DNA of 64,000 bases from Loxodes magnus (lineage: Eukaryota > Ciliophora > Karyorelictea > Loxodida > Loxodidae): assembly GCA_946699065.1 (NCBI GenBank), contig CAMPDV010001320.1, forward strand, positions 62,001 to 126,000, given 5' to 3'. Position numbers and translations under genes: made by a program. Within the stretch, counting starts at the first letter, position 1, and every line of letters begins with the position of its first letter. The notes under the pieces were generated by a model. The model had not been told where the DNA came from, did not search any database, and worked only from the letters and a program-made list of their open reading frames with translations. This document shows positions 1 to 55,367 of this stretch, in pieces.

Positions 1-1689
1 TTTTAAACTAATTTATTATTCTTAAACTTCAGTTGAGTTACCATCTTAAGAAATAATTATAATAGTTTAGCTTATTCTATTTGCTCTTTCTATATGTGAT
101 AAAGTTTCATTTAAAATGTTATGGTTCTTATAAGCAGGCATTACTATAGGATAGATTTCTTCTCTATTTAGTTTATATTATTATATTAATGCTTGATATT
201 CTAGTTTAATTTATTCATAAATTTCAGGATATCATTAATTGAAACTATAAGTAGGACATACTCTTCCATCTCAAGCCATCTAAAGAAAATTAGTCTTGGT
301 AATCTATCCAATATGATATTTGCCCATTTTATATGCATTTTAAAGATAAAAATTCTAACCTTCTTTGCTTGGTAAAAATGCATAATATTTTCCCTTTAAG
401 GTCATTTTTTTGCGGAATTCTAGTATAGAGTTGAAGGAAATAGTTTCTGAATTAGAATCTAAGAGTTTATATTAAGTAGAAAAATAAAAGCCCTTAAATT
501 CTAATGGATTAAGGTTTCCTACTACCTCATTATTCCCTATTTCTGGATGATATTTCTTTACTACTTAAGCTCCTATTCTAAACCTTATTCCTGTTTACAT
601 TAGTCTATAATAATCCTAATCATCTATTTTAATCAATTTATCATTTACTTTAATTTAAGCTTTTGGGCTATTAAAGTTTTCTTATACATCAAAGAAAGAA
701 GTTCCTAAAGCTGTTAACACTAACTAGATATTGTATCATTAATCTTATTTTATTTCAATCTAAGTATCATAATAATTGCATCCTCTATCAGATCCAGTTT
801 CAAGTGTAATAGTTCATTTTTGATTAGAAGAATACACAAGATATAAGAAATAGCCCCAAGTATAGCTAAAGGAATCACAGCCTTCCATTTTATTTCCTAG
901 AATAGCAAAGTGTTGGTACTTTTCTTATCCAGGAAGTATTTTCTTATTGATATTGTTTTAAGAGCTTATTTTATTTTAAAGTTCTAAGTTATTAAAGTTG
1001 AATTTAACTCATAAAGAAATATATAGCTCAGGAAAGTCAAAGGAGCGGAAAGGTCCATGTATTATAAATTGCTAGTTTTTCTTTAAGCTTATTAAAAACT
1101 TATTTTAATCAGCTACTTTCTACCTTCATTTTTGCAAAGGATTAAGTAATTAAATTTTCTAAGCTAATGCTTAGTTTTAATTAATTCTAACTCCAACTTA
1201 ATTTTAATTAGTACTTTCTTATTTACCAATTTTCTACTAATAGCTTCCAGTTTTATTTGACTTTTTTACCTGATAAGTATTAGTTTTTCATTTATGCTTT
1301 ACTATTTTATTTTATTTTTGATCCTCTTAGTTGATGGTTTTCCTTTAAGCAATTTTAGTTATATTTTTAGATTATCAAATGCTATCTTTTTTCCACTTAC
1401 TTATATGCATTTTACTTGCCTTCTTTTCTTTAAAGTCCTCAACTTTTATTTAGGTTGTTTCTCATTTATTTACTTATTTGTCATCCTTTTCAATTACTTT
1501 AAGTTCTTGAGATATATTCAAAGGCAGCTATATCTACTCAATCTTCAAAGGACTCGTCTTTTTCCTCTTTTTCTCTTAATCAAATAACTTTATTTTAATC
1601 TGCTGCTAAAAGGTGATGAAATAGAAGTAAACTACTAAAGTAAGACAGCAAAGAGCAAGAAAGAAAGCGAAGGCATTTTAGTTCCTCAT
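1..1689 (-). CDS. LamG-GT13 glycosyltransferase, copy 1 (3' end outside window)
   Basis: Type II membrane glycosyltransferase, read with TAA/TAG=Gln and TGA=Trp. The start is the ATG at 1689, which opens on MRNQNAFAFF and a hydrophobic anchor of about 20 residues. A Gln/Lys/Asn-rich stem follows to about residue 205. A concanavalin/LamG-like domain begins at IIHGPFRSFDFPEL (His near residue 211) and includes GNKMEGC and LETGSDRGC. The GT13 domain starts with WDGRVCPTYSFNQWYPEIYE and runs to IIIISQDGNST, which resembles the IIVSQD segment of N-acetylglucosaminyltransferase I. The window edge cuts the frame before the Glu-Asp-Asp metal motif. All 563 visible codons are in one frame, so this copy looks functional. 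Role (transfer of a sugar such as GlcNAc in the Golgi) is inferred from the family. Confidence 0.8.
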
Positions 1690-5521: not shown

Positions 5522-5830
5522 ATGTTGGCAAATTCTCGTCGAATAGAAATAAAATTAAAAGGTTCTACTACTGAGAATGACTAATAATCAAGGAGTAAAT
5601 TACCCTAAAGTAAAAAGCAGGAAATCTCTCCGAAGTTTTCTTTGCTAGAGTAAATTAATAAGATTAAAGAACCAAACATAGTTGTAATAAATTATGAAAA
5701 TGAGGAAAGAAAGTTGATGTTAGATATTAATTCAGATGAAAAAAGTCTGTCAAGTGACTGAAGTTCTAGTAAGAGTATAAAATTTCTAGTTTTTTTCGTT
5801 TTTATTCTATTTTAGTGAAAATGCTTTTAT
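5522..5830 (+). CDS. hypothetical ORF fragment, duplicated at 31.5 kb
   Basis: A plus-strand frame from the ATG at 5522 reads MLANSRRIEIKLKG and continues to a block NYENEE...LDINSDEK, followed by a short hydrophobic run. The same peptide pattern (V-x-NYENEE, LDINS-x-EK) occurs in the paralogous segment at about 31760-31850. Both lie upstream of a LamG-GT13 copy. Conservation at the peptide level across two diverged copies is the only reason to call it coding. The 3' end is unclear because several in-frame TGA codons follow and could be Trp or stop. No family is recognised. Confidence 0.35.
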
Positions 5831-5834
5831 TTTT

Positions 5835-7060
5835 ATTTCCATCAATGATAAACTTAAAATTAAATCTCAATCTTATTTCTTTATGCCTGTTTAAATAGAT
5901 ATTGAAAGTAATGATTATAGAGCTTCAGCTAAAATGATAAATAAGTATCAGAGCTAAGCTTAAAACAATTATTAGACAGGTTAAATTCACGTTTTCTTAG
6001 TATATGATATAATTTTAGAATTTATAAAGAGAAGATTTGAAAATTTATCTTTGGATAATTGATGTAAGTAACGAGTTAAACAGCTAATATAGTAAATTAT
6101 TCAATTTAATGTAGGTAAAATTTTAAATAAGCGCTACTAACTGAAATTATTTATAAGATACTAATGTATAATTAAGGATTTAAACTATTTGTCTTAGTCA
6201 TTCATTAATCATTTTTATTACTCTAGTTTTCAATATTGATAAGCTATTTATATCCTTGTATACTATACAATTCTCTTTATCCTTTTAATAGCCATTCGTT
6301 ACTATTTAAATATCTTTTACATCATTAATTTGCTTCATTTAAGTTATCAAATATACTTTTAATACATTTATAAGAGGTTTATTTACTTCTATGTCCAGTT
6401 ATAACCATAAAGCTTTTATACAAATAATTAGTAATCCTGATACCTATATTTAAGCTTTTATTTAGTAATTGGCAAACTGATTTGCAGACTTAAATTATTA
6501 GATTATGATTTTAACCAGAATGATAGCATAAGTGAATCCAAATCTATTTTGATTAATTTACAGTAACTTAATTTTTAAAGAGAATTAGCCTCTTTCTAGT
6601 AAGAATCTATTATTCCTTTGTAAGAGTAGATTACTCGTCAGGATTAGCGCATTAGCTGTTAAGTGAGGGCTATATTCTTGGTTTAGAGGTATCAATTATA
6701 TAAGATTTATCTTAATAGCGAGTAAAGACCTAAAAATAATTAGCTTAATAAATTAGATAGAACTAATTAAGGAATATCTAACTAGACTAAAAGGAACTAA
6801 CTTGTTTAAATATAAGTTGATATATGATAGCTAATTAACAAAGCTAAATTTTCTATCTGGCATCTAGTCTAAAGCTGAGTCTTATAATTATTTAAATCTT
6901 TTTAATTTTTAACAGGGCGAATCTTAATTTTTATTTTAGTATTTAGGCCTTGAAGTTAAAATAAATTATAAGGAACATGGCTTGATTAATATAGATATAT
7001 TAACCAATTAATTTTAACCAAAAGGGTTAGAGTTATATTTAATTAGAAGAAATGTTTCCT
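5835..7060. other. unassigned, partly duplicated at 31.9-32.4 kb
   Basis: No gene is recognised. Segments such as the one around 6000-6120 (TTAGTATATGATA; AGCTAATATAGTA) reappear in the same order at about 32070-32170, which makes this a diverged segmental duplication rather than unique sequence. Confidence 0.3.
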
Positions 7061-8003: not shown

Positions 8004-8755
8004 TTTATTTATTTATATTAGAAATTTTTATTCAATTTCCATCTTGAACTTCTTCTTTATTTTTCTATGGATTTGCTGCTAGGTTTTTTTATTAATATAA
8101 ATTTTAAAGTTAAGGTTTCAATTTAAAGCTAAACTTAACTTACCAAGCATTAATCTTTCTTTTTTTATTTTACAAAAGAAGCCTAAGATTCTAATTTCCG
8201 TCTTCGTAATCTGTATTTCTGCATTCATTTTCTCATTAAGCATTAAAGCTAAATAACTCCTTGCTCAAGAGACTTCTCAAATCTTTTCAGTTTGTTAGGA
8301 AATTAAGTATTTTACAATCCTTAACCTGAGTAGATTTATCTTTTCTGTATTTTTGACTCTTGTTAGTTAAATAAGACTTAAGATTGATCTATCAAGTTAG
8401 AACTTAAGGTTTAGATTCCCGAGTTTTAATTAATTTTTTATTAAATGATGATTTAATAATAGATATATGAGAGTAAATATTAACTAAAAATAATGCATTT
8501 TAGAATATCAAAAAACTAAGAAAGAAAGCGAGGATTTGGTTCTAAAGGAAGTGAATAGCAAGAAAATATAAAGTATGGAAGATATTAATAGTTTCTTATA
8601 TAAAGATATCAATAGCTTAGTAGTCTTATAGAAAAATATAATTAGTTAAATGTTTTAAGCATTTATAAATAATTTTATTTATAAGCTTAATTATTTGTCA
8701 GGATTCAAATAGGATTCTTCGTGGTTCCAAAAAAGTAGGAGTTAATTACATCCTA
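8004..8755. other. no recognisable feature
   Basis: AT-rich sequence with homopolymer runs. No gene, repeat or structured element is seen. Confidence 0.4.
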
Positions 8756-8759
8756 GAAA

Positions 8760-9547
8760 TTTTAGGATTAGGAAAAGAAACCAAAATGGTTATCCATCAA
8801 ATCGAATCTTCCACTTCTGTAGAAAAGCCTAGGAAATAGGCTAAAAGTATTATGCGCTCGGAAGTCTCGAATCTCACCAAGAGCAGTAAATAAGCCATAA
8901 TTAACTGATAAAGTGATGTTAGATCTCGAGGAAGAGATAAAAAAGCTGAAGAAAGATAATAAGAGATAGGTGGAAAAACTTGAAATTGCAGAGGAAATAG
9001 AATTGAGAATCATGAACTAAGAAACAGATCTTAAGCATTTTGAAATATTTCAAAAGACTAGAACAATTAATCATAACACTAACATAGAAGCAGAAAGAAC
9101 TGGTCAACAAATAGAAAGAATAGAAGAAAACCATAAAAAATTGCAGCATTAAATGGACATACAATAATAAGGAAATGACCCAATGATAATCGAAGGAGAA
9201 ATAACTCAAGATTTAAGCCTAAAAGAAGAGTAAAAAGATTCTATTTATGCAACTCTCTAAGACATCAATGGGCAATATAAAGAATTTCAAAATTTTAAAT
9301 AAGAATACTAAAACTACTAGAAGAAGTTGAAGAATAAAAAGAAGCTACAACAGTAGCTACAACTAAAAAGAGAAGGATTATATTGCAACAAATTTGGAAA
9401 ATATACAAGATGAAAGATACCAATAATTTTCTAGGCGAAAGGATACCTCAGGGATAGTATGTATAGCAAGGATGAGAGTTATAGAGATATTTAAACTTTT
9501 ATATTTAGCCTCTATATCAATCTAAAGGTTGGCTGGTAAGAGGTTGA
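8760..9547 (+). CDS. coiled-coil protein with CNKF / LGER-QGQY tail, paralogue 1
   Basis: One frame reads PKWLSIKSNLPLL, SRISPRAVNKPQL and then a long Glu/Lys/Gln coiled coil (VMLDLEEEIKKLKKDNKR), NDPMIIEGEITQDLSL and GLYCNKFGKYTR. The C-terminal part continues in the next frame as NFLGERIPQGQYVQQGWEL and QPLYQSKGWLVRG, ending at TGA 9545-9547. The switch lies near 9420, so there is either a very short intron or a lesion. The only early ATG in frame is at 8916; the frame is open further upstream, so the start is uncertain. Paralogues lie at 10.1-10.9 kb and at the right edge of the window (63.7-64.0 kb). Function is unknown. Confidence 0.5.
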
Positions 9548-10110
9548 AATATCTCCAAAAAAGTTAAAAATTTAATTTTTTAATTGTATTTATGATTAAA
9601 TTTATTAAAGGCTTTAGGACTTTATAATATTGAGATAAGATTTAAGGTAATAAACCGCTTGCTTCGAATATCAAAGATTAACTATTAATATAAAGATTTA
9701 TAACTTAGAGTTTTTTGAATGATACAAGCTTTAAAACAATTAAGAAACAATTAATTTAAGATATAAAAAGGGAAATACTCATGTAATTAATGTAGATCTT
9801 ATATATATGTTATTATACTCCTTCATTTAAGAGAAGTAAAATAAAAGACTTAATTTAATTTTAGTTAATTACAAGTCAAACTTTAAGTTAAATATTTCAT
9901 AAAAAATAGATTAAATAAAGAAATTGATATATATATTTTAAATTTGGAAGGATTCAAAGAGATTTCTAAATTATCTCCAAAAAGTTGAAGAGGAAACCTT
10001 AATCCAATTTTAGCCAGTTTTCTTTTCTTAACCGTAACTGCCTGGAATTCAATCAGTATATGGCGAGAAGAATAATTTCTAGTAAGTTACGCACGTAATA
10101 AGTCCTACAT
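9548..10110. other. spacer between two paralogous coiled-coil genes
   Basis: AT-rich, no gene recognised. ATTTCCAAATTATCTCCAAAAAG-type sequence near 9962-9984 echoes the region just after the first gene (9547-9566), suggesting the pair arose by tandem duplication. Confidence 0.3.
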
Positions 10111-10113
10111 CCT

Positions 10114-10886
10114 ATGAAAATCCAAGGAAGCAGATAAAGTCTTCTCTTCACTAGGATGTTTCAGAACTTAATCCTTCTGGCCGATATTAAATAGCTCATC
10201 AAAGTTGTGCTGAACCTTCAGCAAGAGGTTAGAAAATTGAGAAAGAATAAGGAAAAGCTGATGGAACAACTCAGCCTAGCGGAATAAATAAATCCGGCCT
10301 TATGTCCTAAGAAAGAGAACTAAGCGCTTTCTGAAAAATATCTTAAGACCAGAATAACTAATCCCAAAATTAACTTCAGAAGCAATCTGATCTGATTAAT
10401 AGACTGGAAATAGTAGAAAAGAAGCTTGAAGAACAAAAAGCAGATCCAATGATGATTGAAGAGACCAATAGGAAAACTAAGGTTTAATCACAAAAAGTAG
10501 TGAAAAAAGTTATTACAGCAATTCAACAGAACACTTGTGAAGACACTGCATGAAATTCCAAATTTTCGAGACGTAGTATTGATATAAATAAAGAAGAATA
10601 CAAGCACAGTAGAGGAATAAAAACAAATATAGTAGAGAAAGATCAGAGAAAAACTTACTTAAATAAATTAGGATACATCTATAAGAGAAAATTTGATTAG
10701 AAATAAAGATAGAATTGGAAATAACAAGAGCAATGGGAAGAGTTTGACTTTTAAAACTTTATTTTTAATACCGGAGCAATCTGGTGTTCAGCATAAAGAG
10801 GTGAAAATCCTCGATAATCGCTAAACTCAATTTATCTTATTTTTATTAGAAAGAAATTGATAATAGGAACAGTGGAAATTAATTGA
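10114..10886 (+). pseudogene. coiled-coil protein, paralogue 2 (frame-disrupted)
   Basis: The frame from ATG 10114 gives VVLNLQQEVRKLRKNKEKL...LAEQINPAL...KTRITNP, which aligns with the helical core of the 8.8-kb gene. From about 10385 the matching peptide moves to another frame: DLINRLEIVEKKLEEQ, ADPMMIEETNRK, LNKLGYIYKRKFDQ and a Trp/Gln-rich end, up to TGA 10884-10886. At least one frame disruption near 10380 separates the halves. A tiny intron cannot be excluded, but no convincing splice signals are visible. It shares the DPM-I-E landmark with its neighbour. Function is unknown. Confidence 0.45.
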
Positions 10887-11818: not shown

Positions 11819-13829
11819 ATGAAACTTTAAACCTTAATCTGTTTGCTGGCTTTTCTTCTTCTTTTTTTTAAATTCTTTATGTTTCTAAAATTCAAAGAGC
11901 AAAATAATCTTAAAGCATCTCAGCAAGGACATAAATAGCCTATCTTCCATATGACTTCTATTAATATAGCCTAGTAAGTTGACCAGACTTAGTAAGTTGC
12001 CGAGTAATAAGAAAAGATACTCAAAAATCTACCTAAAGATGGTATTTAAATAAGTCTCCTACCTGATAAACAGTTTATAATCCATGGACCAATAAGTTCT
12101 TTTGACTTTCCTGAGTTACATATCTCTATCTGGGTGAAATTTAGATTAGACAAACTTCTTATAACTAGTGATCAATAAGCTTCAACTAATAGTAATAGTG
12201 ATAAATTCTACGCTATATTTGGAAATAAAATTGAAGGATGTGGTGCCTTTAGTGACTATTGAGGATATTTTTTATACCTAGTTTATGCCTCGTAGAGCTA
12301 AACTAAATGGAAGATTGTTCTAGAAATGGGATCAGATAAAGGATGTCAGTATTTGAATATGAGTAACTTTGAAATAAGATAAGATATATGGTATAATATC
12401 CAAATTCTTTTGACAGCGTATGGAACATCCTTTTTTGATAGAGCTGAAAATAAGTAAAAACCTAGAGCGTAACTAAGATTAAACGACAGAATTATTTCAA
12501 GCTATGATTTGAATTATCATCGGCTATTGTAAACGGGAAGACGGTTTAGAATCAGAGCTTAAGTTATACGAAAACAAGAAGTTAAGAAAGGATGTACTGA
12601 GTTGGTTGGAAATCTTAACAACTTTGAATTTAAAAATTTTTAAATTCAAAATGAGTATAAAGATTTGAGCTAAGCTTAGAATTTTGAATAAATAGCATAA
12701 GAAAGTAGTATTATTCGCTTTTTAAGCAATACTTACATTAAAAGTGAATAGTATATGAACTTAAATTAAAAGAGAGAAAGAAATTATCTTAATGAAATTT
12801 CCAATGTTTGGCAGATTAACAATGTCATTATGGTCAATTCCTAGATTTTAAATTCACTCCTGAGTTTACTTATACAGAGCAGAAATGTGATAGTTTAGGC
12901 ACTATGGAGTATTATCCCGAAATTTATGAGTCGGTTTAAAAGCAGTACCAAGCCTTTGTAGATACCCTAAAATTAAGCACAGAAGAATTATTCCCTATTA
13001 TAATGCCTGTTTTTATGAGATACAATATTTTATTTTAAACTCTATAATCTCTTGAGAGAGTAGATAGAATTAAAAAATCTACTATCATAATCTCTTAAGA
13101 TGAATCTTCAAAAAATGTCACTGATATTATCAAGTCCTTCATACACAAAGGTATTCTCAATATCATCCAGACCCTAGCTTTCCTTCAACTTTAACTGATA
13201 AACTTCAAAGAAAAACATTATATTAAGCTTCTAATGTCTTTTTCCTTTTCAATCTTATGTTAAATTATTTGAAGGTGAAATCAGTGATATACAGTGAAGA
13301 GGATATATTATCTATGGACTTCTATTAATATAATAAATGGATAAACCAAAATTCATCCACAACTATTAAAATGGAAAAAGAGTTTGCTTTGCATCTATCT
13401 CAAGTAAAGCTAATAACAACGACAATTATTTAAATCTCTTTAAAGTTAATTTCAACCAAACTGACTTAGCTTAAAGCTTCATAGTACCTAATTTCATGTG
13501 ACCTGATCTTAAGTCTATTTTTTCACAATGTAATTGATCTTTAAGAATCAGAGAATATTTTGCAAGAACTTGAGAAAAACTTTTGTGAATCCAGATATAT
13601 CTCGTGGTAAGCATATCAGTTAGCAAGGATCAAATACTGTTACTCCATCTTAGCCAAATAATTTATAAATGGAGATGTAGTATTTGAATTTTTTGCTGAT
13701 AGACTATGAAGTTAAATATGAAAACTTGGAGCCTAATATTATCATTCCAAAATATCCCAACATAAGGATATGTCTATCATAAACTTAGACTGGGATTCCT
13801 TAATGAGCATTTCAAATAGGATAATTTGA
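11819..13829 (+). pseudogene. divergent LamG-GT13 glycosyltransferase, copy 6 (several frameshifts)
   Basis: ATG 11819 opens MKLQTLICLLAFLLLFFKFF, a clear signal anchor. A Gln-rich stem and a LamG-like domain follow (IIHGPISSFDFPELHISIWVKF, GNKIEGC, LEMGSDKGC, with conventional TGG at one Trp where other copies have TGA). GT13 landmarks appear in shifted frames: YYPEIYE, IIIISQDESS, YSEEDILSMDFYQYNKWIN (the EDD motif is EED here), FIVPNFMWPDLKSIF and a tail ending WDSLMSISNRII before TGA 13827-13829. About five frame changes occur between 12900 and 13780. It is the most divergent copy and is probably a decayed member. Confidence 0.75.
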
Positions 13830-20425: not shown

Positions 20426-20716
20426 ATGAATATCAAGGAAATTTTTATAGCATTGAAAAGCTTCGAATTGAAATTATATGCAGATAATAAAAAAGAGAAG
20501 AGTTCTTTTGTTTTCATAGTTGATATATCAAAATCTTTATATACTCGAATCACACAGAAGTAAAATCTATAAGCATCTAGAATCTAATTGAGCTTTAATA
20601 ATTATAAATTTATAGAGTAGTAGTAATGAGATGTGATATTACTAGATTCACTTGATATAGATAATTATACTTAAATAAAGAAGCTATTTAAATAAATATC
20701 TTAGTTTTTTGCTTGA
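20426..20716 (+). CDS. small hypothetical protein, 96 aa, VWA-like start
   Basis: ATG 20426 to TGA 20714-20716 gives 96 residues. It reads MNIKEIFIALKSFELKLYAD, then SSFVFIVDISKSLYTRI, then QWDVILLDSLDIDNY and a short helical tail. The hydrophobic strand followed by D-I-S-K-S resembles the DxSxS metal site that opens a von Willebrand A domain, but the rest of such a domain is missing, so this may be a fragment or coincidence. One internal TGA (20627) would be Trp, and the peptide after it keeps the same character. It faces the 3' end of the MORN gene. Confidence 0.4.
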
Positions 20717-20894
20717 TTTTAGATTAAATAAAATATAAGTATAATAATTTGCATCTCCTTTATATATTATTAATAAAATTTAGATGTAAATTTTAGACTT
20801 TATATTTGCTTTGATTTATGTTTTATGTATTATTATTTATCTATTTACTATACATACTTATGTAGTTAATATCTAAAAATTAAATGATTTATAA

Positions 20895-24984: not shown

Positions 24985-25590
24985 TGAAAAGTGTTAGAAG
25001 ATTTAAATAGAGACTTAAACATAAATTTATGTACTGAGTCAAAAAACTAAGACAGCTATTTATTTAGTCTTAAGAAGATTAAGGTAGCTTATTATAAATT
25101 AGATAAGTTTGGTTAACACTGATATGTGTAACTACTTGCTTGTCTGTTTATAAATTAGAAATTTATAGATGTGAATATAAATTCATACCTAGAAGAATAA
25201 AAGGATTATTTTAGAAAAGTTTATTCTTCATTCAAAGTTAATATCAAATAGAACTTCCTGCTTTAAACTATCCATATTAAGTTATAACTCAATATAATTG
25301 ACCATAAAAATGAATAATTAACTTTTATCAAATTTTCTAATTTAAATTAAATGAATACTAAATTTAGGTGAAAGCACCCTTTATTATATTTTCTTTAAGA
25401 TAAGAGAACCAGAATGTAAATAAATAATATAAATAATTATTTCAAATAGAGAAGAAATTATGCTATGAAGAAGAGAAAACTAACTTTTCATCATAAAGTA
25501 GTATAGTACTTATATCTTACTTTCTATTTATTTATAGTTATATAAAATAGGATTTTAATATTTATATGAATTATTTAAAATCTATATAAC
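24985..25590. other. unassigned; partly duplicated near 33.0 kb
   Basis: No gene seen. The segment about 25440-25520 (containing AAAGTAGTATAGTACT) matches about 32990-33075. Confidence 0.35.
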
Positions 25591-25593
25591 TAA

Positions 25594-26320
25594 CAAGCTA
25601 GTTATAAGATACTAATCCATATTCTTTTTTACCAAAAGTAAAAGAATAAATAAGCTAAGATAAGCATTCTATACTTATAAAATTACCTTTTTTACTTTAG
25701 GAATTGTAATAGATATAAAGAACTCTATCATATTACTCTGATAACTCTAATATAAAAGTTACTTTATCATACTCTTATTGATATCTTATGTATTCTTCTA
25801 GTTTAATAGGAATATAAGATATATTAGTACTCTAAGATTTACTCATTATAATTATACTCTCATACTAACTATCAAATCTTTATTATAAACTAAGTTAGTT
25901 ATATTCGAGAAGGTAGAAATACCTTAGCAAATATCTTCATTATTACAACTTGTATTAACTAAGAAGTTATATGAGTTAGCTTTTATCATTTAAAGTATGA
26001 ATATAGATTGAAAAATGTATATAATTAAATAAAGAGTATAAAGCTTTAAATATAATATGAAAAGTTATAACTAATTCAAATCTTTCCTTTGTATACTTTC
26101 ATCAGAAAATCTCACGAAAAGGTATCTGTTGTTTTCAAAATTGTACTATCGAACTAAAGCAAAATATTAGACTCTTTATTTGTATATTTCACAAGATAAA
26201 CTGTTAATTATAAAATTTAATGCTATTTTTTCTAGATTTTTATAGAGTGCAAGATTAAAACTTTCAGAGTGAACACTATCATTATGACTTCAAGTTGCAT
26301 GATTTCCTAGATTTCTAGCA
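25594..26320. repeat. segmental duplication, left copy (partner 33927-34650)
   Basis: About 720 bp of 3' flank plus the final part of a LamG-GT13 gene is nearly identical to 33927-34650, which is the same region of copy 3. The match is very high, including non-coding flank (AAGCTAGTTATAAGATAC), so the event is recent. It breaks off inside the gene near 26320. Confidence 0.85.
26076..26320 (-). pseudogene. 3' remnant of a LamG-GT13 gene
   Basis: Only the last 80 or so codons of the GT13 domain remain, ending in the family's MKVYKGK-type tail and TGA 26076-26078. The match stops near 26320 and unrelated sequence follows up to the stop of copy 2. It came with the 720-bp duplication from the copy-3 locus. 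Confidence 0.75.
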
Positions 26321-27040
26321 TTTTTAATAATTGGCACTACTACTGTTGCCTGTATTGTTTGTGCAATACTAAGTTTACATTAAAGCAATTTTAACAATTT
26401 AAAAGTTATTAACTATAAATACTTATTATATAAAGCATCAAAGGAGCTTAATTATTTATTTTAAAGGTTTAAAGCTTCTTTATATAAATAAAATTAATGA
26501 AATAAAGCTCAAAATCCATCTACTTTTATTTTTTCTTCTAATTTTACCTGAATAATAGTTATTAATAAAAGTAAGCTTACAATTAATTAAAGGCTATTAG
26601 GTTATTTTTTAAATATATTAGAGTTAGAATAGTAAATGCTTCTAATTCATTTTATAAGCCCAGCTATTTCCAAAACCTCCTATTTCTTAAGAACTTTGCT
26701 TACTAGATTAGGTACTTAGTCTATTTATTTGATATATAGCTATTTTAATTAAAGCCAAACTGATGTATTAAGGATTTTAAACTACTTTAAGTTTGGGACT
26801 TTAAATTACTTAGTAGTAAAAATGGTATAAAGAGTATAATGATAAAATATATCTTTAAGAATAAGAAAGAAATAAAATAGCTATAATAGATTTAAATTTT
26901 TAGGTATTAGATGCTTAATAAAATAGATAAAACAGTCCAAACATAAGATTTTGCTATACTTTAAATAAACTTAACAAGTGATTTAGTTATATGATGCTAA
27001 AAGTTATAAAATAATATTATAATGTTAAATAGTTAATTGC
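26321..27040. other. no recognisable feature
   Basis: AT-rich sequence between the remnant and the stop codon of copy 2. Nothing assigned. Confidence 0.4.
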
Positions 27041-30000
27041 TCAAATAGACCCTTTATAAACTTTCATTAGATAATCCCAAGAAAAGGTTTATTATTTTTT
27101 ATAAGTAGTACTGTTGTAAAGAATTATCTAGGGCTAGATATCTTTGTAGTTCACTGGAAAGTTTATTAACTTTAAGTTTTTTGTTGTTTGCTCAAGTTTT
27201 TGCATTCTCACAGAGCTAAAAACTTTAGAATGAATACTTTCATTGTGACTTCATATAATATGCTTTCCTCTTGGAATCACTGGGCTTACAAAAGTTTTCC
27301 TCAAATTCTAGTTAAAATGTCAAAATGCTCTTAGAGGTCAATCACAACCGTTGAATATACTTTTTAGTTCCTTTCAAATGTAATTTGGAAGTATAAAATT
27401 TCAATGCCACATAGGTTTATCGAATCACACTTGATGCAAAGTTTAAATTTTAGTCAAATTTTTAGCATAACTTGTTATTGATGCTGCAGCTATTCTCTTT
27501 CCAAATCTATTATTATGTATAAACTCTCTATTTATTCACTTACTAAACTCGAAAAAGTCTACTGACTAATAAACATCATCTTCACATCATAAAATTGACT
27601 TAGCTTTTAAACGTTCAAATGTAAGATTGAATAAGAAAAAAGCATTTGAGGCACATTGAAACTCTCCGTCTTTATTCTAGCTTTTAAACTCCTAAGGAGT
27701 TTCAGTTTTAGGATGTTTTACATGAATAATATTTAAAATTCCTCTGTTCTTGAAATCATTTATAACGTCTACAACTTATGAAGAATTACCATCTTAAGAA
27801 ATTATTATAATGGTCTAGTTTATTCCATCTGCTCTTTCTATATGTGATAAAGTTTCATTTAAAATATCATGTTTCTTATAAGCAGGCATTACTATTGGAT
27901 AAAGGGTTTCTGTATTAAAATTGAATCTTTTTATATAAGCATCATATTCTTTTTTGACTTATTCATAAATATCAGGATATCATTAATTAAAAGTATAAAT
28001 TGGACATACTCTTCCATCTCAAACCATTTAAAGAAAGTTAGATTTTACTATCTATCCGTAATGATATCTACCCATTCTATATACATCTTAAAGATAAAAA
28101 TTCTAATCTTATTTGATTGGTAGAAATGTATAATATATACCTTTTATACTCAATTTTTTTCTAAATTAATTTATTGAATTTAAGGAAGCAGTTTCATGAT
28201 TAAATGCTAAGATTTTATACTAAGTAGAAAAATATAAGCTCTTAAACTCTAAAGGATTAAGATTTCCTACTATTTCATTGTTTCCTACTTCTGGACTGTA
28301 TTTCTTTACTACTTAAGCTCCTATTCTGAATCTTATAGCTGTTTACATTAGTCTATAATAATCCTAATCCTCTATTTTAATTAATTTATCATTTATTTTT
28401 ATTTAAGCTTTTGGATGTTTAGAATTTCCTTATACATCAAAGAAAGAAGTTCCTAAAGCTGTTAACACTAACTAGATATTGTATCATTAATCTTGTTTTA
28501 TTTCAATCTAAGTATCATAATAATTGCATCCTCTATCAGATCCAGTTTCAAGTGTAATAGTTCATTTTTGATTAGAATACACAAGATATAAGAAATAACC
28601 TCAGGTATAGCTAAAGGAATCACAGCCTTCCATTTTATTTCCTAGAATAGCAAAACGTTATTAATATTCTTTTTCAGTAGAGTTTTCTTAGTTTTAATTG
28701 AAAGACGAAGATGTATTATTTTAAAAGATTAAGTTACTAAATTTAAACTTAACTCATACAGAAATATAGAGTTCAGGGAAGTCAAAGGAGCGAAAAGGTC
28801 CATGGATAATAAATTGTTAGTTTTTCTGTAAGCTTATTAAGAATTTATTTTAAGTAGCTATTCTATTTCTCTATTTTTAAAGGTGATTAAATTTTTTATT
28901 TTTCTAATTTAAAGTTTTGCTTTAATTCTATCTAATTAAATCTTAAATTTAATTTTTCCCTTCTTATTTAACGATTTTCTAACTAATATCTTCAGTTTTA
29001 TTTTACTTATTAGCTTAATATGTTTTATTTTTTTATTTATTTATTTTTATTTTTCTTTAGTTTTGGATTTCTTAGTTAGTAATTTTCCTTTAATCAATTT
29101 ATGATGTATTTTTATTAAATCCAAGACTATCATTTTTCCACTGATCAGCTCATATTTTGACTTTTTCTTTTTCTTTATTATATTCTTCCTCTGTATAAGC
29201 TACTTCTAATTCATTTTCTTTATTATCATCTTCCTTATTCTAAGCTGTTTCTAATCCTCTTTCTTTATTACCCTCTTCCTCTGTATAAGTTGTTTCTATT
29301 TAATTTTCTTTACTATAATCTTCCTTTGTCTAAGCTGTTTCTATTTAATTTTCTTTACTATAATCTTCCTTCATCTAAGCTGTTTCTATTTAATTTTCTT
29401 TACTATAATCTTCCTTCATCTAAGCTGTTTCTATTTAATTTTCTTTACTATCCTCTTCCTTCATCTAAGCTGTTTCTATTTAATTTTCTTTACTATCATT
29501 TTCATTTGTCTAAGCTGTTTCTATTTAATTTTCTTTACTATCCTCTTCCTTCATCTAAGCTGTTTCTATTTAATTTTCTTTACTATCCTCTTCCTTCATC
29601 TAAGCTGTTTCTATTTAATTTTCTTTACTATCATTTTCATTTGTCTAAGCTGTTTCTATTTAATTTTCTTTACTATCCTCTTCCTTCATCTAAGCTGTTT
29701 CTATTTAATTTTCTTTACTATCCTCTTCCTTCATCTAAGCTGTTTCTATTTAATTTTCTTTACTATCCTCTTCCTTCATCTAAGCTGTTTCTATTTAATT
29801 TTCTTTACTATCCTCTTCCTTCATCTAAGCTGTTTCTATTTAATTTTCTTTACTATCCTCTTCCTTCATCTAAGCTGTTTCTAATTTGCTATCTAAATAG
29901 TGTTATTGCTTTCCTTAATAATTATTTGATTAATTTACTTGTTCTTCATTCTATCAAGTTGGTTTAAATTATTGAGACATATTAAAAGCTGGTTACTTCT

Positions 30001-30154
30001 TCTCAATCTTCAATAAACTAACATTTGAGAAATATTTCTTGTAATAAACGAATTCTATTTTAATCTGGTATTAAAGCATTAGGATATAGAAGTAGACTAC
30101 AAGAGTTATAGAGGTAATAGAAATAAAGAGTCTCAAAGCTTTTGAATTCTACAT
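27041..30154 (-). CDS. LamG-GT13 glycosyltransferase, copy 2, with 15-aa repeat stem
   Basis: One frame of 1038 codons runs from ATG 30154 (MQNSKALRLFISITSITLVV, signal anchor) to TGA 27041-27043 (tail WDYLMKVYKGSI). The stem is about 430 residues, much longer than in the sister copies, because of about 16 tandem copies of a 15-residue unit. The LamG-like domain starts at residue 451 (IIHGPF...). The GT13 domain includes WDGRVCPIYTFNQWYPDIYE, VMPAYKKHDILNETLSHIER, IIIISQDGNSS, the WCEDDV metal motif at Glu858, DFFEFSKWIN, and IPRGKHIIWSHNESIHS, the counterpart of the GnT-I/POMGnT1 C-terminal block. Conserved Trp codons are mostly TGA. It looks intact and was probably a Golgi-resident transferase; the donor and acceptor are unknown. 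Confidence 0.9.
29160..29885 (-). repeat. 45-bp tandem repeat, about 16 units, in the copy-2 stem
   Basis: The unit encodes ETAQMKEEDSKENQI. The inner units are almost identical, and the left-hand units (29160-29290) are degenerate. The period of exactly 45 bp keeps the frame. The plus strand also stays open across this repeat, giving an artefactual hydrophobic repeat ORF. Confidence 0.92.
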
Positions 30155-31870: not shown

Positions 31871-32379
31871 AGATTTTACTCATTTGCATCTTATTTATAA
31901 AATGTATTTTTAAATTTTTCCATCAGAGTTAAATTTAAAGTTATATATAAACCTATTTTTTGTATACACATTTAAATAGATAATTAGAAACAAAGGATAC
32001 ACTACTTCAAATAAGAAAATATCAAATTAAAAGGGATTTTTTAAAATTGTTATTAGAAACGTTATCTTTAATCCCTCTTAGTATATGATAGAGAAAAGAT
32101 TTGAATAATAGCAATGAACACTAGAATAAAAGTTACAAACTTAAATAGCTAATATAGTATATTACTCAATTTATATAGGACTATTTTCAATAAACGTAAA
32201 TAAATAAATTTGCTATAAGAGATATTATTATGTATCTAGGCTTTTAATCTATTTAACTTAGCTATTTCATAGATATTTTTATTAATCAAGCTTTCAATAT
32301 TATCATAGCTATTTAAATCCTTATTCCTTATGCAATACTTTATTATCCTTAATATAAGCTATATAAAAATTGGAGAACG

Positions 32380-33926: not shown

Positions 33927-34650
33927 AAGCTAGTTATAAGATACTAATCCATATTCCTTTTTACCAAAAGTAAAAGAATAAATAAGCTAAGATAAGCATT
34001 CTATACTTATAAAGTTACCTTTTCTTCTTTAGGAATTGTAATAGATCTAAAGAACTCTATCATATTACTCTGATAACACTAATATAAAAGTTACTTTATC
34101 ATACTCTTATTGATATCTTATGTATTCTTCTAGTTTAATAGGAATATAAGATATATTAGTACTCTAAGATTTACTCATTATAATTATACTCTCATACTAA
34201 CTATCAAAATCTTTATTATAAACTTAGTTGTTATATTCGAGAAGGTAGAAATACCTTAACAAATATCTTCATTATTTTAACTTGTATTAACTAAGAAGTT
34301 ATATGAGTTAGCTTTTATCATTTAAAGTAGGAATATAGATTGAATATGTATATAATTAAATAAAGAGTATAAAGCTTTAAATATAATATGAAAAGTTATA
34401 ACTAATTCAAATCTTTCCTTTGTATACTTTCATTAGAAAATCCCACGAAAATGTATCTGTTGTTTTCAAAATTGTACTATCGAACTAAAGCAAAATCTCA
34501 GGTCTCTAATCTGTGTAATTCACTTGGAAATCTATTAATTATAAAGTTTTAGTAATTTTTTCTAGGTTTTTATAGAGTGCAAGATTAAAACTTTTAGAGT
34601 GAACACTATCATTATGACTTCAAGTTATATGCTTTCCTCTTGGAATCGCA
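33927..34650. repeat. segmental duplication, right copy (partner 25594-26320)
   Basis: Contains the 3' flank and terminal codons of intact copy 3. It is the likely source of the truncated duplicate at the left locus. Confidence 0.85.
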
Positions 34651-36881
34651 GGACTTACAAAAGTTTTCCTTAAATTTATATTGAAATGCCAAAATGCTCT
34701 GAGAATTCAATCACAAGGAACAAATACACTCTTTAGTTCCTTCCAAATATAATTTGGAACTATAAAATTTCAGTGCCATTTTGGTCTATCAAATCATACT
34801 TAATGCAGAGATTAATTGTTTGTAACATTTCTAGCATAGTTTGTTATTGACACTGCACCTATTCTTTTCCCATACTTATCATTATGAATAAACTCTCTAT
34901 TCATTCACTTACTATACTCGAAAAAATCAACGGACTAATAAACATCATCTTCACATCATAAAACTGATTTTGCTTTTAGATGTTCGAAAGTAAGATTGAG
35001 CAAGAAAAAAGCATTTTAAGCACAGTAAAACTCTCCATCTCTATTCCAATTTACAAATTTTTTATAATAAGTTTAAATATCTAAAGGAATCTCCGTTCTA
35101 GGATGCATTACATGAATAATATTTAAAATACCTCTATTTTTAAACTAATTTATGATATTTTAGACCTATGGTGAGTTTCCATCTTAAGAAATTATTATAA
35201 TGGTCTATTTTATTCCTTCTGCTCTCTCCATATGCTATAAAGTTTCTCTTAAAATCCTATGTCTTTTATAAGCAGGTATGACTACTGGATAGAGTTCTTC
35301 CACATTAAGTTTAAATCTCTCTATAAATGCTTCATATTCTTTTTTCACTTATTCATAAATTTCTGGATATCATTAATTAAAAGTATAAGGCAAACATTCT
35401 CTTCTATCTCAAGCCATTTAAAGAAAGTTAGATTAAGCAACTTATCCGTAATGATATTTTCCTATTCTATACACATCTCTAAGAAAAAATCTCTAATTTT
35501 CTTTGCTGGGTAAAAATGCGTAATACTTTCCTTTTACTGGCTATTTTTTTTAAAATTCATGAATAGAATTTAAAGAAGCTGTTTCTTAGTTAAAACCTTA
35601 GTTTAATAGATTATACTAAGTAGAAAAAAAGAAATTCCTAAACTCTAAAGGATTAAGATTTCCTACTATTTCATTGCTTCCTACTTCTGGATGATATTTC
35701 TTTACTACCTAAGCTCCTATTCTAAATCTTATAGCTGTTTACATTAGTCTATAATAATCCTAATCATCTATTTTAATCAATTTATCATGTATTTTTATTT
35801 AAGCTTTTGGCTTTTTAGCATTTTCTTATACATCAAAGAAAGAAGTTCCTAAAGCTGTTAACACTAACTAGATATTGTATCATTAATCTTGTTTTATTTC
35901 AATCTAAGTATCATAATAATTGCATCCTCTATCAGATCCAGTTTCAAGTGTAATAGTTCATTTTTGATTAGAATATACAAGATATAAGAAATAACCTCAG
36001 GTATAGCTAAAGGAATCACAGCCTTCCATTTTATTTCCTAGAATAGCAAAGCGTTATTAATATTCTTTTTCAGTAGAGTTTTCTTAGCTTTAATTGAAAG
36101 ACAAAGGTATATTATTTTAAAAGTTTAAGTCACTAAATTTAAACTTAACTCATACAGAAATATAGAGTTCAGGAAAGTCAAAGGAGCGAAAAGGTCCATG
36201 GATAATGAACTACTAATCTTTTTTCAAACTTATAAGGAAATCAGTTTAAGAAGGAATTTTTTTCTTGTATATATGCTTATTATTGGACTGCTATTCTTTT
36301 TAAAGCTTAATTTTCTTCTAATTATTATTTTTAACTGCTTAAGTGTATCCTTTGATACTAATATTTGTTGACTAAAGAGAACTTTGATTATTTATTTTTT
36401 TATCTTAAGGAGTATTATTTAACCTCTGCTATTAATCACCAACTTAAATATTTAGGTACCCTAAGCTTTTATTATACTACTTAAGATTTCCTTCTTCTTT
36501 TTTCATATTAAAATCTTAACTACTATAGCTCTACTAAGAGGCAGGTTTTTCTTTAGTTTTCTTTTTAATGAAAAATTTATTTCTCTCATACTAAAATATC
36601 TTCGTTCCGTTCTATTTTAATCCTTCTTATTCAGTGCTAACCTACTAAGCTTATACCATTCTATCTAGATTGCTACTTGCCTAGGTTATATTTCTCTGCT
36701 GTTTTGATATATTTAAAACTTTTTGAATTTTCTCTATTTGAGGAACAGCCTTCTAGTTCTAATCGTTCTTTTCAATGAAAAGTATCTGTATTTGAAACTA
36801 AGAGACTATGATATAGAGGTAAGCCAGTATTGAAAGACAGCTTAGAGCAGCAAAGAGTTAGAGGAGCTTAGAGGTTTGCAT
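34407..36881 (-). CDS. LamG-GT13 glycosyltransferase, copy 3
   Basis: One frame of 825 codons runs from ATG 36881 to TGA 34407-34409. The signal anchor reads LLQLFAALSCLSILAYLYII. The stem (about residues 35-215) is rich in Gln, Asn, Ser and Lys. The LamG-like domain starts near residue 228. The GT13 domain covers roughly 480-824, with QMAWDRRECLPYTFNQWYPE, the Glu-Asp-Asp motif at 644-646, AIPRGKHITWSHNDS and the tail SWDFLMKVYKGKI. It lacks the 15-residue repeats of copy 2. The central DNA, coding the LamG end and linker, is nearly identical to copies 2, 4 and 5, while stem and parts of the GT domain differ. Looks intact. Confidence 0.9.
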
Positions 36882-43069: not shown

Positions 43070-43364
43070 AGTAACTATTTAGAATGATAAATTAATTAAT
43101 TATATGATATATTCCTTACTTCTAGTCTTAATATAATCAATTATTAAACTTATTAATCAAAATCATTTAATAGGCTAAATTTAAAAAATGAAAAAGAAGG
43201 ATAAAAAAAAGCTTAGAGTAACTAAAAAAAATTTTAAAAAATATAAGAAAAATTATGCTGATTGTATCAGTTAAAATTTAATGATATATAAAGTAGCTAA
43301 TATATATAATAACTACTTAGAGAAAAAATAAACTTTAAATTTTAATTAAAAGTATTAAAATAAT

Positions 43365-45794
43365 TCAAATTCTTCCTTTATATATTCTCATTAAAAAATC
43401 CCAAGAATAGGTCTAAGTTGTTTTTAAAATTGTACTATTGAGCTAAAGCAAAATCTCGGGTTTCTAATTTGTGTAATTCAGTTTGAAATCTATTAATTAT
43501 AAATATTAGATCATTACTTCTAGTTACTTTTAGCTCTCAGGGTTCAAATCTTTAGAGTGAACACCATCAATGTGACTTCAAGTTATATGCTTTCCTCTTG
43601 GAATCGCAGGACTTACAAAAGTTTTCCTTAAATTTATATTGAAATGCCAAAATGCTCTGAGAATTCAATCACAAGGAACAAATACACTCTTTAGTTCCTT
43701 TCAAATATAATTTGGAAGTATAAAATTTCAGTGCCAATTTGGCCTATCAAATCATACTTAATACAGAGATTAATTGTTTGTAACATTTCTAGCATAGTTT
43801 GTTATTGACACTGCACCTATTCTTTTCCCATACTTATCATTATGAATAAACTCTCTATTCATTCACTTACTATACTCGAAAAAATCAACGGAATGATATA
43901 TATCATCTTCACATCATAAAACTGATTTGGCTTTTAGATACTCAAATGTAAGATTGAGCAAGAAAAAAGCATTTTAAGCACATTGAAACTCTCCATCCCT
44001 TTTCCAGTTCTTAAAATCTTAAGGAGTTTCTGTTTTAGGATGCATTACATAAATAATATTTAAAATTCCTCTATTTTTAAATTCTTTTATGACATCTAAA
44101 ACCTCTGATGAATTACCATCTTAAGATATTATTATTATAGTCTAGTTTATTCCATCTGCTCTTTCCATATGCTATAAAGTTTATCTTAAAATGTTATGTC
44201 TTTTATAAGCAGGGGTTACTATAGGATAAAGTGTTTCTATACTAAGATTAAATCTTTTTATATAAGCATCATATTCTTTTTTTACTTATTCATAAATACC
44301 AGGATATCATTAGTTAAAAGTATAAGGTAAGCATACTCTTCAATCTCAAACCATTTAAAGAAAGTTAGACTAAACAACTTATCCGTAATGATATTTTCCT
44401 ATTTTATATGCATCTCTAAGAAAAAATCTCTAATTTTCTTTGCTGGGTAAGAAATTATAATATTTTCCTTTTACTGGCTATTTTTTGTAAAATTCCAATA
44501 TAGAATTTAAAGAAGCTGTTTCTTAGTTAAAACCTTAGTTTAATAGATTATACTAGGTAGAAAAAAAGAAATTCCTAAACTCTAAAGGATTAAGATTTCC
44601 TACTATTTCATTGTTTCCTACTTCTGGATGATATTTCTTTACTACCTAAGCTCCTATTCTGAATCTTATAGCTGTTTACATTAGTCTATAATAATCCTAA
44701 TCCTCTATTTTAATCAATTTATCATGTATTTTTATTTAAGCTTTTGGATGTTTAGAGTTTTCTTATACATCAAAGAAAGAAGTTCCTAAAGCTGTTAACA
44801 CTAACTAGATATTGTATCATTAATTTTGTTTTATTTCAATCTAAGTATCATAATAATTGCATCCTCTATCAGATCCAGTTTCAAGTGTAATAGTTCATTT
44901 TTGATTAGAATACACAAGATATAAGAAATAACCTCAGGTATAGCTAAAGGAATCACAGCCTTCCATTTTATTTCCTAGAATAGCAAAACGTTATTAATAT
45001 TCTTTTTCAGTAGAGTTTTCTTAGCTTTAATTGAAAGACAAAGGTATATTATTTTAAAAGTTTAAGTCACTAAATTTAAACTTAACTCATACAGAAATAT
45101 AGAGTTCAGGGAAGTCAAAGGAGCGAAAAGGTCCATGGATAATGAACTACTAATCTTTTTTCAAACTTATAAGGAAATTAGCTTAAGGAGGGTTAATTTT
45201 CTTTAATCTCTACTAAACAATAGCTTGCTTAACTTTTTAAGAGTACTCTTATTTTTTATTTTTATCAATATAATTTGTATTTAAAGTTTAGTTTACCATT
45301 GTCTAATTTTTTAAGGTAACTTGTTCTGTTTTATTAAAGTTATTGCTGTCTAGAACACTTTAATCTGATTATAAAGTTTTCAATATATTTAAATAATTTT
45401 ACTCTTGGATAGTGTTGTTTTATTAATAAATCTTAGAGTAGCTGGTTGTTTATTATGGGACTTTGATATTTTTCTTCTTTATTAAAGTTTTAATTTTATC
45501 TCATCCAATTAGCTGAGTTTCGTTTTATTAATATTCCTCTTAATTGGTCTTTTTCTATCTAATATCTTATATTTAGCTTAACTTTTCTTCATTAAAGGCT
45601 ATATCTTACTAATTTGAAATATTCAAAGCCAATTAGATTTTTTCAAAATTTGAAGGAACGGATTGATATTTCTAATGTTTCTTCTCAACTAATATGATAG
45701 TAATATTGTACTAAGAGGTGATGATGTAGAGGTAAAATATAATAGAAAGGCAGGAAGCAGGTATAAAGAGGTATAGTAACTTAATGGGCTACAT
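43365..45794 (-). CDS. LamG-GT13 glycosyltransferase, copy 4
   Basis: One frame of 810 codons runs from ATG 45794 (MQPIKLLYLFIPASCLSIIF, signal anchor) to TGA 43365-43367 (tail WDFLMRIYKGRI). The stem covers about residues 35-205. LamG starts near 220 and GT13 begins near 475. The metal motif Glu629-Asp-Asp is followed by an FFEYSKW-type segment, and PRGKHIT marks the C-terminal block. The last 40 stem codons and the LamG domain are almost identical to the inverted copy 5 at 53-55 kb, although their outer stems share little. Looks intact, and is presumably a Golgi transferase like its sisters. Confidence 0.9.
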
Positions 45795-52960: not shown

Positions 52961-55367
52961 ATGCAAATCTCTAAGCTTCTTTAACTCTTTATAGCTATCA
53001 CCTGTCTTTCAGTGCTTATTTACCTTTACATCATTACTTCGCAGTTTTAGATAGCTATTTTATTCATTGAAAAGGATAATTAAGACTGGTAAAAAACTTC
53101 CACTAAGATAGAAAATATAAAAATACCTTTAAATATATCAAAGAAGCTGAGTGGAGAAAGGCAGATTGATAAAACCTCAGATAAAGAAGAAATTCCTCAA
53201 TGGTAAAATACTAGTTAAGTAGATAAAAACTAGAATGCTATAAGAAACAGTAATAAGGAAGAAAATAACCACTCAGTCTAAAAAAAAAGTAGCATTGCAA
53301 CTGCTAACTGAAAAAATATAAGCTAAGCGGAATAAGAGCTTTTCAGTATGAAAAATATATAAATTAAAAGTAGCAGCCTAGATTAAAGAAATATAAGCAA
53401 TATAACTAAATTATAATTCAGAAATATTACTTAAGAACAAAGAAATTCAAATAAGTCTAATATTACTAATATCAAAAGATAACAGTACTCTTAAAAAGTT
53501 AACCAAGCTATTGCTTAGTAGAGATTAAAGAAAATTAACCCTCCTTAAGCTAATTTCCTTATAAGTTTAAAAAAAGATTAGTAGTTCATTATCCATGGAC
53601 CTTTTCGCTCCTTTGACTTTCCTGAACTCTATATTTCTGTATGAGTTAAGTTTAAATTTAGTGACTTAAACTTTTAAAATAATATACCTTTGTCTTTCAA
53701 TTAAAGCTAAGAAAACTCTACTGAAAAAGAATATTAATAACGTTTTGCTATTCTAGGAAATAAAATGGAAGGCTGTGATTCCTTTAGCTATACCTGAGGT
53801 TATTTCTTATATCTTGTGTATTCTAATCAAAAATGAACTATTACACTTGAAACTGGATCTGATAGAGGATGCAATTATTATGATACTTAGATTGAAATAA
53901 AACAAAATTAATGATACAATATCTAGTTAGTGTTAACAGCTTTAGGAACTTCTTTCTTTGATGTATAAGAAAACTCTAAAAAGCCAAAAGCTTAAATAAA
54001 AATACATGATAAATTGATTAATATAGAGGATTAGGATTATTATAGACTAATGTAAACAGCTATAAGATTCAGAATAGGAGCTTAGGTAGTAAAGAAATAT
54101 CATCCAGAAGTAGGAAACAATGAAATAGTAGGAAATCTTAATCCTTTAGAGTTTAGGAATTTCTTTTTTTCTACTTAGTATAATCTATTAAACTAAGGTT
54201 TTTACTAAGAAACAACTTCTTTAAATTCTATATTGGAATTTAGAATAAAATAGCCAGTAAAAGGAAAATATTATAATTTCTTACCCAGCAAAGAAAATTA
54301 GAGATTTTTTCTTAGAGATGTGTATAGAATAGGAAAAATATCATTACGGGTAAGTTGTTTAGTCTAACTTTCTTTAAATGGTTTGGGATGGAAGAGTATG
54401 CTTATCTTATACTTTTAACTAATGATATCCTGGTATTTATGAATAAGTAAAAAAAGAATATAAAGAATTTATAGAGAGATTTAAACTTAATGTGTAAGAA
54501 CTCTATCCTATAGTAACCCCTGCTTATAAAAAGCATAACATTTTAAGAGAAACTTTATAGCATATGGAGAGAGCAGATGGAATAAAATAGACCATTATAA
54601 TAATATCTTAAGATGGTAATTCATCAGAGGTTTCAGCAGTAATAAATGAGTTTAAAAATAGAGGAATTTTAAATATTATTCATGTAATGCATCCTAAAAC
54701 AGAAACTTCTTAAGATTTTAAGAACTGGAATAGGGATGGAGAGTTTCAATGTGCTTAAAATGCTTTTTTTCTTCTCAATCTTACATTTGAGTATCTAAAA
54801 GCAAAATCAGTTTTATGATGTGAAGATGATATATATCATTCCGTTGATTTTTTCGAGTATAGTAAGTGAATGAATAGAGAGTTTATTCATAATGATAAGT
54901 ATGGGAAAAGAATAGGTGCAGTATCAATAACTAATTTTGCAAGAAATGTTGCAAACAATTAATCTCTGTATTAAGTATGATTTGATAGACCAAATTGGCA
55001 CTGAAATTTTATACTTCCAAATTATATTTGAAAGGAACTAAAGAGTGTATTTGTTCCTTGCGATTGACCACTTAGAGCATTTTGGCATTTTAATTAAAAT
55101 TTAAGGAAAACTTTATAAGTCCTGCGATTCCTAGAGGAAAGCATACGGCGTGAAATAGTAATGATAGTATTCATTCAAAATATTTCGATGCAAAACGAAT
55201 GAAGATATTTGAGAGTTTAACTGGAAACTTAAAGCTTATTGACTTTTCAGTAAATTACAAAGATATAAAAACCTTAGATTTTGCTATAGTATAATAGTAC
55301 AATCTACAAAACAACTTATACCTTTTCATGGGATTTTCTAATGAGAATATATAAAGGAAGAATTTGA
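52961..55367 (+). pseudogene. LamG-GT13 glycosyltransferase, copy 5 (inverted, frameshifted)
   Basis: ATG 52961 opens MQISKLLQLFIAITCLSVLI, a signal anchor. An Asn/Ser/Lys-rich stem and LamG domain (IIHGPF at residue 212) are in frame. The GT13 domain is complete in content: VWDGRVC, ISQDGNSSEVS, LWCEDDIYHSVDFFEYSKW, AIPRGKHTAWNSNDS and the tail WDFLMRIYKGRI ending at TGA 55365-55367. Three single-base indels relative to the sister copies change frame: an extra A in the A-run at 54334-54338, a loss near 55111 and a gain near 55265. It is otherwise close to copy 4 in inverted orientation, so it is a young pseudogene, unless the indels are sequencing errors. Confidence 0.85.

Follow-up and report, generated by a model that had tools for sequence, protein, structure and literature searches.

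The window analysed here is a stretch of 64,000 nucleotides of the ciliate Loxodes magnus (assembly GCA_946699065.1, contig CAMPDV010001320.1, positions 62,001 to 126,000 of the forward strand), and the subject of this report is a family of genes within it that couple a laminin G-like (LamG) domain to a domain resembling glycosyltransferase family 13 (GT13). The window has a guanine plus cytosine (GC) content of about 24% and belongs to a genome of 705.7 Mb in 7843 contigs. According to the text of Seah et al. 2024 (PMC11441545), the macronuclear assembly of L. magnus measures 706 Mb and the organism uses translation table 27 with a context-dependent UGA.

Six LamG+GT13 gene copies (A to F) and a 3′ remnant were located by self-blastn, translated search and gene models (Table 1), each where a first-pass annotation made from the sequence alone had placed it. 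Copies A to F share the domain order hydrophobic anchor, stem, LamG-like domain, linker and GT13-like domain; the architecture proposed in that annotation is upheld, with the GT13 and LamG parts recognised by family-level matches. Its count of four readable and two decayed copies stands if copy A is taken as readable; strictly, three copies are intact (B, C and D), A leaves the window, extending beyond its edge to about -580, and E and F are decayed. The GT13 part of copy F is split over three frames (12976-13149, 13221-13349 and 13349-13561), and copy E has frame breaks near 54340 and near 55100 and another after about 55230. Copies E and F are inverted relative to A-D, no introns were found in the modelled part of B, C and D, and a decayed seventh copy (L009) lies about 12 kb ahead of the window start. 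The similarity of the copies is not a matter of chance, since A to E share 80-92% DNA identity over 1.1-1.9 kb (self-blastn) and the proteins of B, C and D are 90-97% identical in LamG and 71-82% in GT13 (linker 67-84%, stem 17-30%). The remnant (25576-26308) is 93.6% identical over 735 bp to the 3′ end and downstream sequence of copy C (33908-34638; self-blastn).

Table 1. LamG+GT13 gene copies and associated features in the window
Feature	Position	Strand	Description
Copy A	1..1689	(-)	start codon at 1689; anchor, stem, LamG (readable), linker, start of GT13-like domain; frame break near position 20
Copy F	11819..13641 (about 13640+)	(+)	diverged, decayed; anchor and LamG (12038-12673) open
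3′ remnant	25576..26355	(-)	C-terminal end of GT13 and downstream sequence
Copy B	27041..30154	(-)	intact, 1037 aa; LamG about 28205-28846; GT13-like 27044-27910; stop TGA 27041-27043
Stem minisatellite of copy B	29169..29883	(-)	15.9 copies of 45 bp, an in-frame 15-residue repeat with consensus about KEEDSKENQIETAQM
Copy C	34407..36881	(-)	intact, 824 aa; anchor 36777-36881; stem to 36243; LamG 35598-36242; GT13-like 34410-35300; stop TGA 34407-34409
Main coding-limited variation zone, position D	43146..45344	(-)	from about codon 150 until 219 bp past the stop
Copy D	43365..45794	(-)	intact, 809 aa; anchor 45690-45794; LamG 44535-45179; GT13-like 43368-44237; stop TGA 43365-43367
Copy E	52961..about 55370	(+)	anchor, stem and LamG open (frame P0004, 52961-54346); GT13 part frame-shifted

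The frames of the LamG+GT13 copies and of a neighbouring MORN-repeat gene are open solely when TAA and TAG are read as Gln and TGA as Trp. The standard code was rejected, as it leaves only two open reading frames of at least 150 aa in 64 kb, and so was table 6 (TGA as stop only), under which 12-16 in-frame TGA codons would break copies B, C and D. What was found instead are the features of the karyorelict code (table 27), namely TAA/TAG as Gln, TGA as Trp inside the gene, TGA as the stop and depletion of TGA ahead of it. In 29 copies of the array, Trp is encoded upstream by 383 TGA and 133 TGG codons, and within the last 20 codons by no TGA and 29 TGG codons; a TGA follows the final residue in 29/29 (the tally omits the broken copy L037, and the copies are related and do not represent 29 independent cases). 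PMC11441545 describes in-frame UGA as depleted over about 20 codons before true Loxodes stops. Because the MORN-repeat gene also reads under table 27, and because of this pattern of Trp codon usage, we take table 27 to be the real code here. The MORN-repeat gene itself (20601-24200, minus strand) has 29 scored PF02493 stretches (1.2e-120), is readable under table 27 only, and probably explains the strong GC skew and the tandem repeats of 69, 138 and 345 bp in the same interval.

Taken alone, the window copies were nearly matchless, and relatives from other contigs were therefore added to the profile. The best Pfam match of copy C was MGAT2, at 23.8 bits below the cut-off of 27, copy B had none, and a phmmer/PDB search with copy C yielded no meaningful match. 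A genome search with the profile PF03071 (GNT-I) gave seven scored candidates, all over the cut-off and none inside the window (in the control on 14 genomes there was one signal, under the cut-off). The proteins encoded at all seven places are relatives of the window family that combine LamG with GT13 behind a hydrophobic N-terminus, and with B, C and D they form the ten-member alignment used below. At E<=0.1, Pfam assigned GNT-I to 6/10 members (best 1.9e-11) and MGAT2 to 5/10 (best 1.3e-5); the matches to GnT-II/MGAT2 (GT16, PF05060) are weak, cover about the first 70 residues of the domain and are weaker than GNT-I across the family. A profile search of the PDB with the alignment returned GnT-I (1fo9; 3.9e-9), then another glycosyltransferase, chondroitin synthase (5.8e-6), and further down GnT-II (0.07) and POMGnT1 (3.1); judged by profile comparison, GnT-I/MGAT1 (GT13; PDB 1FO8, 1FO9, 2AM3) is the closest solved relative of the family. 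Alignment to rabbit GnT-I with hhalign gave 97% probability, an E-value of 7.8e-11 (from one template comparison and not a database E-value) and 18% identity over 202 catalytic-domain columns. The motif Glu-Asp-Asp (EDD), common to both, is invariant in 10/10 members and aligned with E211-D212-D213 of the rabbit enzyme, whereas POMGnT1 reads EED. Copies B to E also carry it, as does copy A in the part outside the window; the decayed copy F has EED, and the decayed copy G is without the region.

For the LamG-like part, Pfam matched Laminin_G_3 (PF13385) in 7/10 members of the alignment at E<=0.1 (best 5.4e-10). No LamG structure was found by sequence when the alignment was compared with the PDB. 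A LamG-only structure model was poor (predicted local distance difference test, pLDDT, 45; predicted template modelling score, pTM, 0.45), and the best Foldseek match with it had an E-value of 0.017, with 0/387 matches at 0.001 or better. By their titles, nearly all of the best 50 of these 387 were pentraxin, LamG, galectin or similar concanavalin A (ConA)-like jelly rolls, a weak indication of the same fold. A stem domain of the ILEI/PANDER type was not among the six Pfam families that the ten members matched at E<=0.1. At family level, then, the catalytic part matches GT13, and for the N-terminal part there is a match to Laminin_G_3 and a weak one to ConA-like jelly rolls, in line with the first-pass annotation; neither of the outcomes that it named as refuting was seen. 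The Pfam matches for which it suggested a search exist for the family (GNT-I, Laminin_G_3) and are missing for single window copies. POMGnT1, which it named beside GnT-I, is not the nearest relative (MGAT1 3.9e-9, POMGnT1 3.1), and the difference it drew from the POMGnT1 stem holds.

The amplification described at this locus is real and is not merely local. Five protein searches of the genome, in each of which 56 to 69 of 598 to 948 candidates were scored, gave at least 56, 74, 63, 63 and 69 matches, which merged into at least 242 distinct places on 122 contigs, at least 183 of them 1400 bp or longer and so with room for both domains. This genome-wide count, which had been suggested as a check, is a lower bound (even window copy B is missing from one search) drawn from places not all inspected individually, although the inclusion of decayed copies, or of contigs assembled twice, may have raised it; the identities returned by these searches are too low, as stop codons were scored as mismatches (copy D against itself, 90%). 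Genome searches with Pfam profiles gave 11 matches for LamG (4 of 14 control genomes) and 19 for MGAT2 (0 of 14). A pattern search for relatives matched 83 stretches in viral contigs and 43 in bacterial and archaeal genomes, none of which was confirmed; this method gives no hint of a viral or bacterial source. On contig C426 there are another six or more GT13-like places, which belong to other subfamilies and lie in both orientations.

The flanks of copy D recur around 18 copies on 17 contigs, two of them on contig C1170. A C-type copy lies 8.9-9.5 kb from the D-type copy in at least 11 of the 18, followed in at least nine of these by a B-type copy 7-16 kb further on. The two units on C1170, with D-, C- and B-type copies, stand in opposite orientation. 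The region (contigs C1170 and C426) has the look of a large cluster of segmental duplications and could be connected with the additional k-mer peaks reported for the genome (PMC11441545).

Variation between these units is concentrated in the genes. Among the 18 copies at position D, the near flanks vary at 1/2228 sites (upstream 1/1001, downstream 0/1227; L019, L025 and L037 cover the flanks only in part), while the LamG-linker-GT13 region varies at 197/1812 (LamG 36/642, linker 54/297, GT13 107/873) and codons 1-150 at 9/450. Variable sites continue past the stop codon (31/270), the last of them 219 bp beyond it, and the far-upstream stretch exists in two unrelated versions (146/450 sites). 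The first 16 D-position genes fetched comprise 13 distinct sequences, with three identical pairs. The variable zone (Table 1) roughly coincides with the sequence that self-blastn finds common to the array positions. Minor alleles at position D recur in 18 sequences from other positions in 220/264 cases, as against 96.5 expected (standard deviation 7.2, maximum 121) when the same changes were placed at random sites in 2000 draws. One D-position copy (L028) agrees with a C-position copy (L039) at 46 variants in a row, a tract of 558 bp, with 99.1% identity versus 90.6% for the D consensus; the best paralog-matching tracts in the other 17 D copies comprise 7 to 14 variants. As the copies are related, these figures are descriptive and carry no strict probability. 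The pattern is clear at position D, partial at C, where the variable zone of four copies runs from gene nucleotide 574 to 1122 bp past the stop, and absent at E. Because the flanks are nearly invariant, the coding part is variable and its minor alleles match paralogs at other positions, ectopic gene conversion is the simplest account of the pattern at position D.

The ratio of nonsynonymous to synonymous polymorphism (pN/pS) was computed from 13 (D), 6 (E) and 4 (C) distinct sequences. It was 0.14 (D), 0.25 (E) and 0.31 (C) in the GT13 part, 0.51, 0.41 and 0.22 in LamG, 0.39, 0.63 and 0.31 in the linker, and 0.72 and 0.66 in the stem of D and E (not computable for C). Diversifying selection on the exposed part is thus not seen, with pN/pS below 1 in LamG, linker, GT13 and, where computed, the stem. 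The GT13 values indicate purifying selection, as befits constrained enzymes rather than diversifying antigens. The ratios as a whole imply that what is exchanged distinguishes one functional enzyme from another and is in many cases silent. The stem changes in another way. The in-frame minisatellite of copy B (Table 1) has 15.9 repeats in the window and a different number in 4/4 other units (27.9, 10.9, at least 23.3 and at least 29.0, the last array continuing past the end of the fetched stretch).

Taken together, we consider it probable that this is a large Loxodes family of Golgi-type, lectin-guided, GlcNAc-transferase-like type II membrane enzymes, which has expanded and whose members gene conversion keeps in flux. 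Each protein would be held in the Golgi by its signal anchor, next to a short cytosolic end, and the fast-changing stem would project the LamG module, a ConA-like lectin, with a GT-A catalytic domain behind it. This GnT-I-related domain would use a metal-bound sugar nucleotide through EDD, presumably with GlcNAc as the donor, and LamG would most probably bind a glycan or glycoprotein substrate and present it to the transferase domain, with a likely effect on secreted or cell-surface glycans. The genes would be carried in segmentally duplicated multi-gene units, among whose array positions ectopic conversion would swap the part from about codon 150 to just past the stop; conversion would be limited to the coding part because it is mainly this part that the array positions have in common. 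Purifying selection would keep the enzyme working, and the stems would change through in-frame changes of repeat number.

Several observations weigh against this account. None of the window copies B, C and D has a Pfam GT13 match by itself; a Pfam LamG match is likewise absent from each of the three alone and from the LamG part of F. The anchor of copies A-F was read by eye and, among the hydropathy segments listed, is seen for D, E and F. A structure model of LamG+GT13, built from the window copies only, reached a pLDDT of 35, and the GT-A fold is proposed from sequence. Residue D291 of rabbit GnT-I, the catalytic base Asp, is not securely aligned, falling two residues off the Asp of the family motif CD[WF], a position that holds Asp in 8/10 members and His in 2/10. 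As to conversion, the three identical pairs at position D may be loci assembled twice. The variation at position C extends 1122 bp past the stop, of which only about 500 bp is shared with the 3′ remnant, and so reaches beyond the known shared sequence, and at position E (eight copies) the upstream flank is more variable than the gene, so that the invariant-flank pattern is absent. The conversion pattern, moreover, was read from one assembly, with contigs from Falcon polished with Racon and an average coverage of about 20-30x (PMC11441545).

The two members with His (L002 on contig C35 and L007 on contig C18) form a subfamily that keeps EDD yet has His at the conserved Asp position close to the residue presumed to be the catalytic base, possibly representing another mechanism or an inactive branch.

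The uncertain position of the catalytic base, together with His in 2/10 members, leads to the question of whether the GT13-like domains are mostly inactive and serve, with their fold kept, as lectin-like or scaffold parts of proteins that expanded as binders of surface or mucus glycans. In the window copies conservation is highest in LamG (90-97%), and it is difficult to envisage active GnT-I-like enzymes by the hundred; yet EDD is kept in all ten aligned members and in copies A-E, and GT13 has a lower pN/pS than LamG in D (0.14 versus 0.51) and E (0.25 versus 0.41), but not in C (0.31 versus 0.22). We regard such a loss of activity as rather unlikely. Doubt of a different kind attaches to the coding-limited diversity, which might be an assembly artefact, reads from different paralogs having been mixed over the conserved coding part when the contigs were assembled or polished. 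A HiFi read usually spans more than a gene plus its flank, mixing would tend to homogenise the copies, yet the 16 D-position genes comprise 13 distinct sequences, and the lengths of the minisatellites also differ between units. Near-identical units, the coverage and Racon polishing reported in PMC11441545 and the identical gene pairs among contigs would all favour such mixing, which we nevertheless judge unlikely.

A donor array, invariant flanks, a mosaic coding part and stems of variable length are what would be seen if the locus were a diversity generator like those of antigenic variation, in which conversion and stem repeats vary a glycan coat, possibly in somatic nuclei. This is quite improbable in our view, as pN/pS lies below 1 in LamG, linker and GT13 and much of the exchanged variation is silent, and as the two units with position D flanks on contig C1170 indicate that at least some copies are intrachromosomal duplicates rather than one locus in alternative states; no evidence of an expression site was found, and none was sought. 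The variable surface glycans suggested by the first-pass annotation remain a guess, given purifying selection on the catalytic domain. A related idea, which we hold to be doubtful, is a recombining repertoire of lectin-guided glycosyltransferases that would resemble antigenic variation but vary the enzymes writing the glycan coat (through substrate choice by LamG and reach by stem length) instead of coat proteins, with sets perhaps differing between nuclei or clones. The reading as a family of constrained, Golgi-type enzymes kept in motion by conversion is the one retained below.

Outside the LamG+GT13 genes, the window contains a repeat pair (5670-6284 and 31760-32350; 68% identical) that is perhaps a mobile-element remnant, and two coiled-coil-looking frames of higher GC on the plus strand, at 8502-9299 and 9801-10799. 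Pfam gave no match for the latter frame and one match far under the cut-off for the former.

Among known systems, MGAT1 has a type II anchor like the Loxodes family; unlike it, MGAT1 is not known to have a LamG domain and is usually encoded by one or few genes. POMGnT1 (PDB 5GGF) has the same kind of layout, with a lectin-type module ahead of the GT13 domain; its stem domain is ILEI/PANDER-like, where the module of the Loxodes family is Laminin_G_3. The array can be likened to the VSG, pilin and msg families, in which ectopic conversion from paralogs feeds mosaic coding regions between invariant flanks. The Loxodes genes differ from these in being, as it appears, enzymes under purifying selection, and silent cassettes or an expression site were sought in the sequence only.

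No description of a LamG+GT13 architecture kept across highly diverged subfamilies was found in the open-access literature (most subscription papers and all preprints lay outside this scope). The words 'glycosyl' and 'laminin' do not occur in the main text of PMC6935857, which treats ciliate gene families and includes Loxodes transcriptomes, nor do 'glycosyl', 'laminin' and 'gene conversion' in that of PMC11441545. New here are the near-invariant flanks at position D against a variable coding part, and the minor alleles that match paralogs at other positions. As an example of apparent ectopic gene conversion limited to coding sequence, the array is unusually clean, since the invariant flanks allow it to be measured.

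According to the text of PMC1431531, the N-glycans on a recombinant protein secreted by Tetrahymena simply end in mannose and are for the most part Man3GlcNAc2, which the authors describe as comparable to the organism's own secreted proteins, and PMC6474222 credits Paramecium bursaria with a smaller set of genes for N-glycan biosynthesis than P. caudatum. Because the N-glycans of Tetrahymena are this simple, some 180 places with GnT-I-like, lectin-fused genes are unexpected in a ciliate. It is against the very simple glycans of the best-studied ciliates that the Loxodes family matters, and its at least 180 places with lectin-fused transferases point to an unknown glycan chemistry in karyorelicts.

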